Shown: positions 3,518 through 31,895 of the stretch, one piece after another
Numbering within the stretch: the stretch's first letter is position 1
Layout of the letters: each line of letters begins with the position of its first letter
Source: Phalacrocorax aristotelis
Taxonomy: Eukaryota; Chordata; Aves; Suliformes; Phalacrocoracidae
Assembly (NCBI RefSeq): GCF_949628215.1
Contig: NC_134279.1
Coordinates: 58,077,766 to 58,141,765, forward strand
Direction: 5' to 3'
Length of the DNA stretch: 64,000 nucleotides
The notes under the pieces: generated by a model
What the model saw: the letters and a program-made list of their open reading frames with translations, nothing else
Databases searched by the model: none
Told to the model about the DNA's origin: nothing
Made by a program: the position numbers and the translations under genes

Positions 3518-3523
3518 TTTATT
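3518..3523 (-). terminator. Poly(A) signal AATAAA of the minus-strand recombinase-derived gene
   Basis: The plus strand reads tttatt, giving AATAAA on the minus strand, 284 nt past the stop codon of the gene at 3807-5533. It is the first canonical hexamer I found downstream of that stop. This would give a 3' UTR of roughly 0.3 kb. Inferred from position only. Confidence 0.45.
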
Positions 3524-3806: not shown

Positions 3807-5533
3807 CTATAATCTCCCTGGGATCATACAGGGCCATCTTGCCAGGCGAGTGACGTCTTCCCCAGGATACCCACAGCGTGCAGCAGTAACAGCAGTCCCC
3901 AGCCAGAAGGAATGCACGCCATACTGCTCCGGACATAGCCCCAGCAGCCGCAAGGCCCGTCGGAGAATAGTCAGGAATTCCCTTTTTGTTACAGTCCTAT
4001 TATCTGAGTGCATAAAGAGTGGCCCTTCCAGCTGCGAACGAACTGCCACATAGCTCCGGAGGGCCAGAACAGGGCACACCCATGGCTCTCCAGACAGCCC
4101 AAGGCTGATGACAGGTCTCTCCTGACCCACAGAAGAGGTATGCAGACAAAACACCACTCTCCTCTCCATCAGCTGGAGGTCACTCAGGTACAGCAGCTCA
4201 GGCTGCAGTACATCATGGTGCTTCACCACCATCTCTCCTATTCGAAGTGCCCCAAAAAATGCTACAGTAAATAATGCACGAAACAGTAAGCATTCATAAT
4301 GAGTTACACATACAGACTCCAGAGCTCCCAAGAGAGATCGCAACACCTCAATTGTTATAGGTGAGTATTTATCCCTCAGGATGCCTGCTCGACGTTTCAA
4401 CCCTATCACCATACAACGGGTTATAGGATCTTCCAGAGGATCAGGGTTACCAGTCAGTTTTGATAAATAAGACAGTGCCGCCACATAGATCAGTATCTTT
4501 GAGGATGAATAAGATTCCACAGTCAAAAACCCTCTAACTTGCTCCTCTGGAATTGGCCAGGCTGCAGGCATTCCCATACTTTTCCTAAAGGCAAGGAATT
4601 TCTTCAGTCCTTCGAGGTAGGCTTGCCAAAGCCTACTATCCCCTGAGCACTCCAACAGTGACAAAGTCTTCAGAGGCTGAGGTCCCAAAGAATCTTTCCG
4701 AGGAGAACTAAACTCCCTTCCTATAAGAAAGGAGCCATGTTAGCACATGCTGACAACAGGCACAAGCATACCACTTAGGCAGCAATAAAGACAGTGTTCC
4801 TCAGTGCGATACACCCCTAGACAATGCTCTGCTAGTTTATCTGATTAGAGACAAGTCACACACAGCTACACTCAGAGCTGTTGAAGAGCTGAGATATTTT
4901 TCAAATGGGAAACTACAAGCAACATACCAGGCCCATTTCAGGCACTAGATCTGGTAACACTCTAGGTATTTACAAGTTTGTGGAGCAGTAACAGATCAGC
5001 AACAGATTAGTAATTGACAAGCAAGAAGCAGTTTTAAAACGAAGCCTTCCTGGTTTGGCTTACAGAAATTACAACTGCAAAGTGCACAGAGCACACTCCT
5101 GCCAGAAGGCAGCATATTTCACAGCCCAGCAAGAGGAACTCCCTCGAGGTCTCCCTCCAAAATCTCCAGCAAAACCAAGGACACGCTGCCCGGCAGAAGC
5201 CACGGCCGCCAGCGATCTGCTTGCCCCTCCACCCAGAGCCAGAAGCCAGCCCCCAGCCATGGGGTGGGGAGAGACGGGCAGCCCCGCCACAGAGCACTGT
5301 CCGCACTTACCAGCCACGGCCGCTCCGCGCTCCTCACACTGCCGGGAGCCACCGGGGTGCACCACCGCTACCGTCCTACACACTGCTCCTCTGCTGCCAT
5401 GCGAGAAGGTAGCTGCTTGCCCAGCAAGGCCCAGCTCCAGCCACTCCATGCCAGGCTCCTGGGCCAGCAGCGCCAGCATCTCCCAAAAGGGCGCAGCAGC
5501 AGTCCCAGACGGAGTGCGGGCACGGCAGGACAT
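3807..5533 (-). CDS. Tyrosine-recombinase-derived protein A (two exons; probably catalytically inactive)
   Basis: Two exons join in frame: exon 1 is 5533-5311 (ATG at 5533, G at -3) and exon 2 is 4720-3807. The donor is GCTG|GTAAGT, the acceptor TTATAG|GAAGG, and the intron is 590 nt in phase 1. The product is 378 aa. Exon 1 (residues 1-74) is Ala/Gly-rich with the motif APFWEMLALL and is unlike known recombinases. Exon 2 looks like the core-binding plus catalytic fold of transposon tyrosine recombinases. Residues 226-236 carry the box-A-like AFFGALRIGEM with the first catalytic Arg (R234) present. The HxxR motif reads HSFW (344-347), so the second Arg is Trp. The frame ends nine residues after ARW (368-370) with no catalytic Tyr. 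DNA cleavage is therefore unlikely; a retained fold may bind DNA or protein (inference). A paralogue lies divergently at 6978-8546. A Crypton, DIRS or Ngaro source cannot be separated by eye. Confidence 0.8.
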
Positions 5534-5569
5534 GGCAGGAGGACAAGCAGCGAACGCAGCCCCTGGACG

Positions 5570-5662
5570 ACACGACAGCTGGGGCAAGCGCGACCCGCGG
5601 GCCCTTTTATAGCCGCTGGCAAAGCCCTCCTCCGATTGGGTAACGGGAGCAGCCCCGCCCAG
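5570..5662 (-). promoter_or_regulatory. Core promoter of the minus-strand recombinase-derived gene
   Basis: Read on the minus strand: a GC box (GGGCGGGGC, about 5652-5660), a CCAAT box at 5635-5639, and a TATA box CTATAAAAG at 5604-5612. About 70 nt separate the TATA box from the ATG at 5533, implying a start site near 5575-5580 and a 5' UTR of about 45 nt. The order and the TATA flank (GGCTATAAAARGG) match the promoter of the divergent paralogue. Confidence 0.6.
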
Positions 5663-5820
5663 TCGGAGCGCTACTATTGGCTGCCCTCCCGGCGCGGCCC
5701 CTCCCCGGGAAGCGCGCGGCGGGGAGCGGCGGCGGGCGCGAAGCGGCCGTTATCGAGGGGCAGGGCCGCGGCGGCGGGCGGGGAGCGGGGCCGGCACGCT
5801 AGCCGGAAGGCGCTTTTTAG

Positions 5821-6072
5821 CTGCCCTTCTGCCGAGGCCCGAGGTGCGAATGGGTTTACTGATAAGGTTAAAAGAAGGGAGTAATTGTGTTACCCACCTG
5901 TTGTATCCTGGGCTCTTTAAGATGTGGTTTCCAGAAAGCTTCTTACCTGCCCTTCTGCCGAGGCCCGAGGTGCGAATGGGTTTACTAATAAGGATAAAAG
6001 AAGGGAGTAATTGTGTTACCCACCCGTTGTATCGTGGGCTCTTTAAGACGTTTCTAGAGAGCTTCCCACAGG
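5821..6072. repeat. 126-bp tandem duplication between the divergent genes
   Basis: Two near-identical copies begin at 5821 and 5947 (both start ctgcccttctgccgaggc). Copy 2 decays after about 6060. They differ by scattered substitutions (for example tactgataagg versus tactaataagg). The unit includes AT-rich GATA-like segments. It is not an interspersed-repeat family that I recognise and may be a duplicated regulatory element. Confidence 0.85.
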
Positions 6073-6855
6073 GAATAGGTTAGGGCAGCTGGCTCCGCCT
6101 GAATTACCGATTATCCTTCCCTGTTAATTACAGACAATGCACCTAGGTGCTTTACGCACAGTTCAACGAGATAACCACCCTTCTGTGGCAACTATCCCTG
6201 CTAAATCCCGAGAGAAAATAAAGCAAGCGGGCTCCGCCGCTGACAACCTGAGCTTTTGGGGTGGTATTTTCCTGTATGCCCTCATCTCCTTCGTGGTGTC
6301 TTTGCAGAGCCTGCTTGCTCTGAGGAGAGGGTAGCTGGAACCCCAAGGTACTGGGGTATCCCCGGAGGCTCCCGGCCGCAGAAGGTACCAGCTGGCCCTG
6401 CTTGCTGGCACCCTTGAGCCCCGGCCTGGTCTCCCTTTGCACAAAGCAGCGCAGGGACCCCAACAACCACCCTCCCCGGGAGCTTCCTCTCCCCCAAGGT
6501 TTGACCGTCACTCCTGGCCCTCATCCGGTCCTACACCGCCTTCGTACCTTTGACTGTTGCAGGGTGTCTCATTCAAGTAACAAAATGGCGCAGGTCTGAG
6601 GCGGGGGAGAACCAGGCCAAGAGGGGTAAGTCACATAGCGGAGGCGCACCCGCGGGCACACCCTCCATCACCGGCGGCTCCTTCCTTAGCTCCACTTGCA
6701 GCACAAGGAAGGCGACAACGATAATGGACCGTTTGGCTCCAGGCAGTGAAACCTCACCCCTGAGCGGCCCCGCCGCGGCTGCCCCGTTCCCTCCCTCAGG
6801 CACAGACTCCGCCTCCCTGCGGGGCGGAGCGCAAAGCCACGCGGCTTGCTCCGCC

Positions 6856-6952
6856 ATTGGGCAAGAGAGGGGCGGGGGCGGGAAAGGGGAGCTCCGATTG
6901 GTTGGACGTACAGACCGGCTATAAAAAGGCAGCGCGGCGGCCATTTTCGGCA
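6856..6952 (+). promoter_or_regulatory. Core promoter of the plus-strand recombinase-derived gene
   Basis: Inverted CCAAT boxes (attgg) lie at 6856-6860 and 6897-6901, a GC box (ggggcgggggcgg) at about 6869-6881, and a TATA box ctataaaaag at about 6919-6928. The predicted start site is about 6950, inside a ggccattttcgg motif resembling YY1-type initiators. The ATG follows at 6978, so the 5' UTR would be about 30 nt. The layout mirrors the minus-strand promoter at 5570-5662. Confidence 0.6.
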
Positions 6953-6977
6953 GTTGGTGGTTCGTGCTGGTGGTGGG

Positions 6978-8546
6978 ATGGATGGGAGTTTGATGGCGAC
7001 GCAGAGCGGTGGGCTTGAGCCGTCTGCCTCTCCTTCGCCCTTCTGGGTGCTGCTGGCGCTACTGCGGCGCGAGCCGGGTATGGGGTGGCTGCCGCCTGGT
7101 CCAGGTGGCTGTGCCGGATTGTGGGGTTCCAGTGTGGTGGAGGCTGGCAGCAGAAGAGGAGCTGGTGAGTGTGGTGGTGGCCCTAGGGGGTCGGCTGCAT
7201 GGTGGGGGAGGTTGGCAGAGGCTTGGTGGGTTCTTCTGTGGTGTCTGTCCTCTGTACTGGAAGACTTCTGGGACCTGTGTGCACTGCTGAATCTATTGTT
7301 CTTGTGTAGCTTTGTTACTATCAATCCCTTCTGCTCCTTGATGGAGGTCTGGTGGTGCAGAAATCTTGCTGTAGTTTGCTGGGTCTGTCACCAGGCTTGA
7401 GGTGTTGCTTTAAAGAGAAAAATCACTGGGGTTTTTGTGTTGGTTTTTTTTGAGAATTTAATTCTTTTGCTATGCTCTAGCTGTTGGAAGCTGTGCAAGT
7501 GAGACCTGTCAGAATGCAAGGGACAGACTTTTTTTGGAGATATTAAAGCAAAAGCTGGAGCATGCTGAAAGGGAGGAAACTTGTCTGTTTGTCCATGAGA
7601 CTACCTTGTTTGCCATTGCTAATGTGGATTTCTTTTAGCAGATGAACTCAGCCAGGAGGTCCCTGAGAAGCATCCCTTGGGCCCTTACCCACTGAGGGCT
7701 CTGCTCTTACTGGAGGACTCGGGAGATAGCTGCTTATGGAAGGTCTACCATGAAGGCCTGAAGAATTTCCTTGCCTTTAGAGAATGCATGGCTCTGCCTG
7801 CAGTCTGGCCAATTCCCGTGGATCAAGTGAGAGAGTTCTTGGTTGTCATGGATGCTCAGGATCTGCCTCCCACTAAAATAATAATGTACATGGAAGGACT
7901 GTCTTTCATTTCCAGAATGGTAGATCATCCTGATCCTCTTCAAGATCCTGTTATCTGTCACATGATATCAAGGCTGAAATGTAGGACTGGCCCTTTGAAT
8001 GATAAATACTTGCCTGTAACTGTTGAAGTGTTAAGATCTCTTCTGGGGACTTTGGCATCTGTGTGTAGATCTCCTTATGAGTGTATATTGTTCCGTGCCA
8101 TGTTTACTGTAGCTTTTTTTGGGGCACTCCATATAGAAGAGATGGTGGCAAATTGCCAAAATACAGCACAGCCAGAGCTCCTGTACTTGAGTGACCTCCA
8201 GCTGACTGAAGGGGGTGCAAACCTTTGTTTGCATACATCACACATGGGCCAGGAGCGGTTTCTGATCCAACTGAGATTATCTAAAGAGCTGTGGGTCTGT
8301 CCTGTTGAAGCTCTCCGTATCTATGTGGCAGCACGGCCACAAGGAGAGGGCCCTCTCTTTGTGCACTTGGACAGTACGGCTGTGACAAAACGGGAGTTCC
8401 TTACTGTCTTCCGTTGTGCTCTTGGGCTTGCTGGACTTCCTCCAAACCAGTTTGGTGTGCATTCTCTCTGGTTGGGGACTGTTGTAACAGCAGTATCTCA
8501 TGGGTATTCTCATGAAGCTATTAACAGAATAGCAAGGTGGTGGTGA
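6978..8546 (+). CDS. Tyrosine-recombinase-derived protein B (two exons; probably catalytically inactive)
   Basis: Exon 1 is 6978-7164, with an ATG in strong context (G at -3 and +4). Exon 2 is 7639-8546. The donor is GCTG|GTGAGT and the acceptor TTTTAG|CAG; the 474-nt intron is phase 1, as in the divergent paralogue. The product is 364 aa. Exon 1 carries SPFWVLLALLRREPGMGWL, matching APFWEMLALLAQEPGMEWL of the partner. Exon 2 aligns with the partner over its whole length, at rather over half identity by eye, including LWVCPVEALR, GPLF and TVTKREFLT-like blocks. The box-A segment reads FFGALHIEEM, so even the first catalytic Arg is replaced (H227). HxxR reads HSLW (337-340). The frame stops one residue after ARW (361-363), before any catalytic Tyr. 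This is a recombinase fold kept open without chemistry, so a structural, DNA-binding or regulatory role is more likely than recombination (inference). Confidence 0.8.
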
Positions 8547-8699: not shown

Positions 8700-8714
8700 C
8701 CCCCCCCCCCCCCC
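8700..8714 (+). repeat. Poly-C tract in 3' UTR
   Basis: A run of 15 C lies between the stop codon and the poly(A) signal of the plus-strand recombinase-derived gene. Such tracts can bind poly(C)-binding proteins, but this one may simply be slippage-prone DNA. Confidence 0.9.
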
Positions 8715-8831: not shown

Positions 8832-8837
8832 ATTAAA
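8832..8837 (+). terminator. Poly(A) signal ATTAAA of the plus-strand recombinase-derived gene
   Basis: ATTAAA lies 286 nt past the stop at 8544-8546, followed by a T/C-rich stretch. It is the commonest variant hexamer and is spaced from its stop almost exactly like the AATAAA of the divergent paralogue. Confidence 0.5.
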
Positions 8838-31095: not shown

Positions 31096-31671
31096 TCAAA
31101 AGATCTTGCACTCATTAATGGAGAAGAGCTTCCTCCTGTTCTGCCTTTTGGCTTGATTGACTGCTGTCCGCACGGCGTACTCAAACACCTGCTGCACTCC
31201 TCGGTTGCTGAGGGCAGAGCACTCCAAATAGCCTTTGGCTCGCACATCCTGGGCGAGCCGCTTCCCGTCTATCGGGCTGATGCAGGCGGAATGGTAGGGC
31301 CCCATGTCACGCTGGTCAGTCTGAGTAGCCACTACCAAAACGGGGGTGCGGGGCAAATGGCTGCGGACTTCACTGATCCATTTGTTCCTCAGGTTCAGAA
31401 AAGAATTGTGGTTTGCCACTGAGTAGCACATTAATACCACATCTGCCTGTTGGTAGGAGAGGGGGCGAATGTTTTTGAAGGCATCGCTGCCAGACGTGTC
31501 CCAAAGACCTAGGCTAATCTGTACACCATCCATGAAGACATCCACTCCGGTATTTTCATATACGGTGGGCCTGTAGTCATCTGGAAAAGTCTCGGAGGTG
31601 AAACGTACCAAAAGAGATGTTTTCCCCACCGCAGAGTCTCCTACCAAGACACACTTGATTGAATCCAGCAT
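31096..31671 (-). CDS. RHOH: RHOH, haematopoietic GTPase-deficient Rho family protein
   Basis: An intact 191-aa frame in one exon, the usual RHOH length and coding structure. The frame stays open 39 codons upstream, but [19 protein letters not shown] matches the family start. The P-loop is GDSAVGKTS (11-19), with Ser at the Rac Gly12 position. The switch II region reads WDTSGSD, so the Rac Gln61 position is Ser62 (Asn in human RHOH, as I recall) and the usual DTAG Ala is Ser60. Both changes fit a protein that binds GTP without hydrolysing it. Tyr73 and Tyr83 of the ITAM-like segment are present ([15 protein letters not shown]). TQTD (116-119) replaces the usual TKxD, and the C-terminus is the CAAX box CKIF. 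In mammals RHOH recruits ZAP70/LCK in T-cell receptor signalling and restrains Rac. It sits about 30 kb downstream of the N4BP2 end on the same strand, as in human. Confidence 0.97.
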
Positions 31672-31895
31672 TTTATTAACGTCCAGGGCCAAATGCACTG
31701 TCTTGGCGTAGCAAGAGTGGGATGGAGAGATGCAGTGGTCTTGGGTGGTCTCTAGATAACTTCCATTTGGTGAATGGAAGCCGTTCAAATCTCTTTACTT
31801 CAAGGCTTGATTGTGTCACTTGAGTATAATATCCCCTTTTCTCCCACACGGCTCTGTGGTGCTGTCAGTTTTAATTCTTCAGTGAGTTGATGTTT
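31672..31895 (-). other. RHOH: Probable 5' UTR part of the RHOH coding exon
   Basis: Upstream of the RHOH ATG the minus strand reads TTTTAGTTTTACTCTTCCAG|AAACATC, a strong pyrimidine-rich 3' splice site with its AG at 31897-31896. The coding exon would then begin at 31895 with 224 nt of 5' UTR. Known RHOH genes have non-coding 5' exons spliced to one coding exon, which fits. Not tested against transcripts. Confidence 0.5.

Follow-up and report, generated by a model that had tools for sequence, protein, structure and literature searches.

A head-to-head pair of bird genes with the predicted fold of a catalytically dead tyrosine recombinase

We describe two divergent, two-exon predicted genes, A and B, in the shag genome and read them, with a probability of roughly nine in ten, as domesticated, dead tyrosine recombinases (YRs). 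We conclude that the A/B family represents an ancient capture, separate from the Crypton-derived genes, that occurs as a head-to-head pair in birds. Signs that selection has retained the sequence suggest that the host now uses the recombinase for something else. The family offers a concrete, testable case for the use of a retired recombinase fold in vertebrates, and both genes, should they be present in chicken, could be knocked out in the standard cell lines of this species.

Layout of the gene pair and its surroundings

The window, i.e., the whole 64-kb stretch of DNA analysed, contains gene A at 3807-5533 on the minus strand (378 aa) and gene B at 6978-8546 on the plus strand (364 aa), which confirms the original prediction of two divergent genes with phase-1 introns. 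The TATA boxes that it placed in front of the genes (at 5611 for A and 6920 for B, with a presumed promoter function) and the poly(A) signals that it placed about 285 nt past the stops were also found. The features are as follows:

3518..3523, minus strand: gene A poly(A) signal AATAAA, 284 nt past the stop
3807..4720, minus strand: gene A exon 2, tyrosine-recombinase-fold region; open frame, in which 304 codons, the stop among them, follow the split codon; homologues in other species; C-terminal end ...LARWPCMIPGRL-stop
4721..5310, minus strand: gene A intron, 590 nt, phase 1, GT donor (5310) and AG acceptor read from the sequence
5311..5533, minus strand: gene A exon 1 with ATG (5533); codes for the motif FWEMLALLAQEPGMEWL
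5604..5611, minus strand: gene A TATA box TATAAAAG, 78 nt upstream of the ATG; putative promoter
6920..6928, plus strand: gene B TATA box TATAAAAAG, 58 nt upstream of the ATG; putative promoter
6978..7164, plus strand: gene B exon 1 with ATG (6978); codes for the motif FWVLLALLRREPGMGWL
7165..7638, plus strand: gene B intron, 474 nt, phase 1, from splice signals
7639..8546, plus strand: gene B exon 2, tyrosine-recombinase-fold region, open frame; ends ...RIARWW-stop
8832..8837, plus strand: gene B poly(A) signal ATTAAA, 286 nt past the stop
31096..31794, minus strand: open frame containing a coding exon, presumably of RHOH (Ras family PF00071, E 2.2e-41); context only

Two observations underlie the predicted splicing: the splice-site signals and the agreement of exons 1 and 2 with the predicted proteins of other species, which, as in A and B, have the N-terminal motif and the YR region in one chain. 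The gene B acceptor is a NAGNAG, with exon 2 starting at 7639 or 7642, and in gene A, CCAAT boxes occur further upstream of TATAAAAG. The window gave no match in Rfam or tRNA scans.

The pair is flanked by CHRNA9 on one side and RHOH on the other. The placement next to RHOH can be refined: RHOH lies at a distance of about 22.5 kb from gene B, and on the opposite side, the end of gene A is separated from CHRNA9 exons by about 16 kb. In a search of the 1.28-Gb assembly in which the best candidates were scored, A and B were the only full copies; the many near-identical copies for which a check had been proposed were not among them. A further locus in the same genome (L005; 25% identity, three stops, E 0.05) was taken as a chance match.

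Recombinase fold and active site

Profile comparison and structure models indicate that the A/B family has a tyrosine-recombinase fold, which supports its earlier assignment to the transposon-type tyrosine recombinases. With hhalign, the family matched the canonical YRs of the P0085 set (alignment A3; TE-like YRs from mostly short metagenome and sequence-archive contigs, without an assigned element class such as DIRS, Ngaro, Crypton, or other) at 98.8% and an E value of 5e-17 over 283 columns. For two family proteins, AlphaFold2 models resemble Cre, Xer, and integrases and combine a helical core-binding domain with an alpha/beta catalytic domain of the Cre/Xer/integrase type, although the two alignments behind them overlap and include TE-like YR rows (1/43 and 5/29), so that the models do not count as evidence separate from the homology. 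Among the matches listed in the structure comparisons, 50/50 for each model were YRs, YR-fold repressors, or type IB topoisomerases, and Foldseek also gave YR matches. Pfam gave neither A nor B a match up to E 1, and a scan of 14 members up to E 10 yielded only two weak matches, both unrelated. An integrase match was obtained in PHROGs for one member (E 0.38), and a PDB sequence search returned nothing below E 0.06.

The family differs from the P0085 set in its active site. While the R-K-H-R-W-Y columns are invariant in 14/14 aligned rows of that set, the catalytic R-K-H-R-(H/W)-Y of an active enzyme is incomplete in the A/B family. The second Arg position is Trp in 74 of the 80 sequences with a letter there, the exceptions being Arg in one protein (gull P0001), Cys in four, and Gln in one; it is Arg in 6/6 TE-like YRs. 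Lys column 271, invariant in 14/14 TE-like YRs, contains neither Lys nor Arg in any of the 11 members listed, and the nearby Lys column 268 has Arg in five of these 11 and Lys in none. No helix with the Tyr was seen in any of 76 inspected tails; 12 of these belong to partial models that stop at the HxxW motif. From the sequences, we conclude that the family is a putatively dead recombinase. It is conceivable, with the first Arg kept in 58 and the His in 73 of the sequences with a letter there (84 and 81, respectively), that A and B are working recombinases with a non-canonical active site, but this is hardly credible given that the Tyr helix and two basic residues, the conserved Lys and the second Arg, are lost; in gene B of the window, His moreover occupies the first Arg position. 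Catalytic loss had not been part of the original prediction.

Relatives, selection, and origin of the family

Protein searches (64 and 84 matches) detected predicted relatives in many birds, Crocodylus, turtles, geckos, and Python, nearly all of them named uncharacterized or hypothetical at the source, while a Limosa protein of the A clade carries the label rho-related GTP-binding. No named mammal, amphibian, or fish occurred among the 64 and 84 matches; the searches were word-limited, with about 8000 candidates scored in each, and many matches are nameless, so that absence from these groups is not proven. Viral contigs yielded no relatives when queried with the gene family or with the TE-like YRs of A3, and searches of the open-access PMC literature brought up no description of the family. 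The pattern of the exon 1 motif was present in 31 of 86 sequences (many rows have no exon 1), including birds, the crocodile, two turtles, two geckos, and the python.

The protein tree follows the species, with bird A and bird B as separate clades (each with 100/100 support). Among the relatives found, the A/B pair is seen only in birds; this distribution, as well as the spread across sauropsids, goes beyond the original prediction. In the best tree, the duplication falls on the bird stem after the crocodiles (92/93), although AU tests, on groups picked after the tree, do not reject a grouping of the crocodile with A (p 0.26) or with B (p 0.09). Orthologues had been expected at the same locus in related species: relatives are present in many sauropsids, and a shared locus is hinted at by the consecutive LOC numbers of A and B in Chroicocephalus and by apparently shared contigs in Chroicocephalus, Willisornis, and Parus.

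The A and B proteins are 55% identical (202/364, exon 1 motif included), consistent with the earlier estimate by eye of rather over half, and exon 2 of gene B aligned to A at 60% in the genome search. DNA similarity between the two at E <0.01 is confined to the coding parts (816 columns in exon 2, 62 in exon 1). Over the 291 codons of exon 2, the differences at codon positions 1/2/3 are 96/60/127, and the pairwise dN/dS is 0.24 (bootstrap 0.16-0.35), far below the value near 1 that would have spoken against a host gene, this being a value between the paralogues A and B and not between the orthologues originally proposed. Constraint is weaker in exon 1 (A/B dN/dS 0.59 over 57 codons). For A and B alike, 10/10 bird pairs show stronger conservation in the YR region than in the linker of the same protein. 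In several oscine passerines, Numida (guineafowl), and Lathamus (parrot), the C-terminus of gene B diverges from the family and stops early, which suggests that B may be partly relaxed.

These data also bear on whether A and B are recent or dead transposon copies that stayed open by chance. Their homology to mobile-element-like YRs would fit such an origin, but the best-scored candidates in the genome included no other full copies, both frames are open at 55% identity with a dN/dS of 0.24, and predicted relatives occur in birds, crocodile, turtles, and squamates. Based on copy number, dN/dS, and phyletic spread, we consider this explanation very improbable and reject it. The low copy number, the relatives elsewhere, and the purifying selection between the paralogues are those of a domesticated host gene, in line with the selection on a host gene proposed originally.

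We therefore favor domestication and suggest the following scheme. A mobile-element YR would have been captured once, in the common ancestor of squamates, turtles, crocodiles, and birds, and its exon would have been joined to a short first exon supplying a helical hairpin. The enzyme would have died through replacement of the conserved Lys, a change of the second catalytic Arg to Trp, and loss of the C-terminal helix with the Tyr nucleophile, while keeping its two-domain clamp fold. In birds, the gene occurs as the head-to-head pair A and B, and the proteins may act in regulation as binding proteins, comparable to MrpR and the Crypton-derived regulators. We consider this explanation as a whole (one ancient capture, a dead YR with its clamp fold, the bird pair, and binding proteins) to be quite probable. 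The single capture, its age, and the job are inferred: squamates, turtles, and archosaurs have the truncation, the R-to-W change, and the motif of exon 1 in common, which points to one capture. If the squamate proteins are true orthologues, this capture is older than the divergence, about 280 million years ago, between squamates and the lineage of turtles and archosaurs.

Known systems and possible function

The vertebrate domesticated tyrosine recombinases in the surveyed literature are Crypton-derived (the DUF3504 genes and the YR in ATF7IP), the former including KCTD1, KIAA1958, ZMYM2/3/4, and QRICH1 (Kojima and Jurka 2011, PMC3212892). The original prediction had offered these genes as a precedent only, and in this sense the comparison stands: both groups are vertebrate host genes from a mobile-element YR in which most catalytic residues are lost. 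Since they are of the same general kind, A and B could themselves belong to the DUF3504 set, e.g., as relatives of KIAA1958L, but this is very improbable. PF12012 (DUF3504) matches 0/14 members at E up to 10, and its 15 matches in the shag genome all lie away from the A/B locus. With hhalign, the family reached 2% against two DUF3504 proteins, although the canonical YRs (A3) reached 0.2% against the same pair, so that this comparison separates subfamilies and not folds. Membership was thus rejected at the profile level (14 members scanned, and the genome search). Unlike in the DUF3504 genes, the YR fold makes up most of the A and B proteins, with no other Pfam domain, and the named matches are from sauropsids only. 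The A/B family appears to go back to a capture of its own, from another YR lineage, and persists as a dead, nearly stand-alone recombinase.

Two other systems are comparable in part. MrpR (YopR) of phage SPbeta is described, in passages of PMC10516654, as a dead-YR repressor that retains the catalytic Tyr and Lys; MrpR and SroF of phi3T differ from the A/B family in being phage proteins with 8-11% identity in structural alignments, and the exon 1 hairpin is, as far as examined, specific to the A/B family. LAP2alpha and ZNF451 contain DIRS-derived domains according to an excerpt of PMC5753468; they resemble A and B as protein sequence of YR retrotransposons co-opted in vertebrates, but are different host genes.

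One conceivable function is that of a dominant-negative restriction factor, in which dead YR subunits poison the synaptic complexes of live DIRS, Ngaro, or Crypton elements. A catalytically dead YR with a retained fold would suit this role, and DIRS-order retrotransposons are stated in part of PMC9210276 to be absent from birds and mammals. We consider it improbable, as the interaction with a live YR is without support and the C-terminal helix region is missing; moreover, the elements are described as lacking in mammals as well, where no named copy of the gene was found, and old DIRS and Ngaro fossils are reported in human by PMC9004415, which gives an ancient loss of activity as the explanation. 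Slightly more doubtful still is the broader proposal of a sauropsid-wide restriction factor that jams live YR retrotransposons in their synaptic complexes, its duplication in birds having contributed to the lack of the DIRS order there.

For the domesticated dead recombinase, a job in binding DNA and/or protein partners is likely. The net charge ranges from +8 to +19 in six TE-like YRs and from -5 to +11 in 14 family members; it is +3 to +11 in the A, gecko, and python proteins examined, and -5 to 0 in those of the crocodile, the turtles, and three B proteins, which weakens a DNA-binding reading. That A and B are DNA-binding regulators is thus a tentative possibility. We see it as equally tentative that the same domesticated gene now uses its YR fold only as a protein-protein scaffold (e.g., as an adaptor formed by the old synapsis surfaces and the exon 1 hairpin) and has lost DNA binding. 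Conserved Lys/Arg columns and net positive charge have indeed been lost, and exon 1 contributes a confidently predicted helical hairpin in both AlphaFold models; against this, the positive proteins named above remain so, and the core-binding and catalytic domains are both retained and conserved. The two genes may differ in this respect: gene A, with a YR region that is still positive, may encode a protein that touches DNA, while the neutral to acidic product of gene B is more likely a protein-binding partner.

The gene pair and its neighbours

Both A and B comprise two exons, separated, as claimed in the original prediction, by a phase-1 intron; the intron ends are GT...AG. The exons, read from the sequence, are as follows:

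5533-5311, minus strand, A exon 1
4720-3807, minus strand, A exon 2
6978-7164, plus strand, B exon 1
7639-8546, plus strand, B exon 2

The encoded proteins (A, 378 aa; B, 364 aa) are 55% identical, in line with the earlier estimate of rather over half. TATA boxes are located 78 nt (A) and 58 nt (B) 5' of the ATG within the common string GGCTATAAAA, with CCAAT boxes further 5', and the poly(A) signals, previously placed about 285 nt past the stop, were measured at 284 nt (A) and 286 nt (B). With exons, splice ends and signals located, the divergent pair of intron-containing paralogous genes is confirmed. Between the promoters, a 114-nt sequence is tandemly duplicated (window 5812-6051; copies 94% identical, starting 126 nt apart), a duplication that may be regulatory, and the 3' UTR of B holds a C run at 8700-8714.

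The proposed neighbour RHOH lies within a frame at 31096-31794 on the minus strand; Pfam assigns it to the Ras family, and we take it to be this gene. The other flank in the shag's own genome carries exons of CHRNA9, for which the alpha-9 receptor was the top PDB match (E 8.7e-72), thus placing the pair between CHRNA9 and RHOH. An RRM exon on the CHRNA9 side is presumably RBM47, and open-frame fragments on the left flank (L011, G000:C4:58031732; L015, 58074302-58075634) look by eye like relics of CR1-type reverse transcriptases.

Copy number, constraint and relatives

Protein A matched six places in its own 1.28-Gb genome (best eight candidates scored), four of them being the exons of the pair, with B exon 1 found only at E 0.65. 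The other two were L004 (1-3162; G000:C2:28711119-28714280), on another chromosome, where part of B survives in decayed form, and L005, a weak match at chance level. L004 is 77% identical to B over approximately the last 200 coding nt and the beginning of the 3' UTR and has an inner stop; as the match does not extend to the intron, it may be either a retrocopy or a DNA copy. DNA similarity between A and B at E < 0.01 was confined to coding sequence (exon 2, 816 columns, 69%; exon 1, 62 columns, 77%). Comparing the two paralogues, exon 2 (291 codons) gave a dS of 1.19, a dN of 0.28 and a dN/dS of 0.24 (bootstrap 0.16-0.35), and exon 1 (57 codons) a dN/dS of 0.59. We therefore reject A and B as transposon copies, and the earlier view that selection, rather than chance survival of dead copies, keeps these frames open is supported; the many near-identical copies that would have spoken against it were not found among the candidates scored.

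Searching with A returned 64 proteins and a 14-sequence profile 84, together 85 different proteins from many birds, Crocodylus, three turtles, two geckos and Python, plus many unnamed archive entries; no named mammal, amphibian or fish was among them. Two matches, P0015 and P0019, were already named tyrosine recombinase (YR). Identity to A was approximately 72-90% in A-like and 47-68% in B-like or partial bird proteins, 56% in Crocodylus, 38-39% in the geckos and 38% in Python. In a protein tree of 53 sequences (51 of the 85 matches, A and B), squamates branched first, turtles next and then the crocodile, ahead of separate clades of bird A and bird B proteins, each supported at 100/100. Since galliforms occur in both, the duplication predates their split from the other sampled birds. 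AU tests, with groups chosen after the tree, did not reject grouping the crocodile with A (p 0.26) or B (p 0.09).

Across ten bird pairs, one being a composite galliform (Lagopus for A, Numida for B), identity was 72-91% (A) and 68-89% (B) in the YR region, always above that of the linker of the same protein (A 35-72%, B 36-64%), and 71-92% (A) and 40-88% (B) in the exon 1 motif. In four models (P0005, P0014, P0015, P0032) the second half of this motif is missing, as would result from splicing at an earlier donor; exon 1 (window 5311-5533, 6978-7164) could thus possibly yield two isoforms, only one of them containing the second helix.

Active site and C-terminus

Residues were counted over 86 sequences (P0001-P0084, A and B), gaps excluded. 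The first catalytic Arg was present in 58/84 and the His in 73/81, while the second Arg position, R in all six canonical mobile-element-like (TE-like) YRs compared, held W in 74/80 (C in four, Q and R in one each). A Lys invariant in 14/14 TE-like sequences, its catalytic role inferred from position, was neither Lys nor Arg in any of the 11 listed family members; in five of these 11, Arg stood in another Lys column three residues N-terminal of it. The Tyr helix was absent from the family proteins reaching the RW motif, which end shortly beyond it (76 tails inspected, 12 of them from partial models that reach no further than the HxxW motif); a Tyr occurred in the scanned region of three tails, never at the TE-like position. 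Judged from these residues, the YR active site of the family is dead.

P0019 carries a long unrelated tail. Relative to window 8460-8546, several oscine passerines, Numida and Lathamus have a B protein with a divergent, shortened tail; these proteins (P0039, P0040-P0045, P0050, P0052, P0054) depart directly after HSFWLG and end variably, as if the B C-terminus were dispensable. Willisornis B (P0046) keeps the family C-terminus.

Possible function and origin

The pair combines a dead YR fold and constraint between paralogues with a new, predicted N-terminal hairpin, and by analogy A and B would be binding proteins. The phage repressor MrpR, a dead YR turned DNA-binding repressor as described in PMC10516654, is a precedent. 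DNA or protein binding has likewise been proposed for Crypton-derived domains by Kojima and Jurka (PMC3212892). Among six TE-like YRs, the net charge of the YR region ranged from +8 to +19. Within the family, five A-clade proteins carried +6 to +11 and three squamate proteins +3 to +8, and values of -5 to 0 were seen for the crocodile, two turtles and three proteins of the B clade. This pattern faintly suggests possible contact with DNA for A and mainly with protein for B.

Unlike the Crypton-derived vertebrate genes, which carry DUF3504 (PF12012), none of the 14 family members examined matched this domain, and its 15 matches in the own genome all lie away from the A/B locus; membership is therefore rejected. 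Profile comparison with two DUF3504 proteins gave 2% for the family and 0.2% for TE-like YRs; because the latter also fail, the comparison separates subfamilies and is silent on fold. DIRS and Ngaro YRs are stated to have no match at all to DUF3504 (Kojima and Jurka, PMC3212892), so that a DIRS/Ngaro-like donor fits, albeit unproven. One source states that birds and mammals are without DIRS-order elements (PMC9210276), and another reports old DIRS and Ngaro fossils in human (PMC9004415). We found no published description of the A/B family in the open-access PMC literature. Among the DUF3504 matches in the own genome, L020 (G000:C1:164163299) lies in a 521-aa open frame keeping an HSLR and a downstream Tyr, and another (G000:C35:30169199) in a 294-aa open frame.
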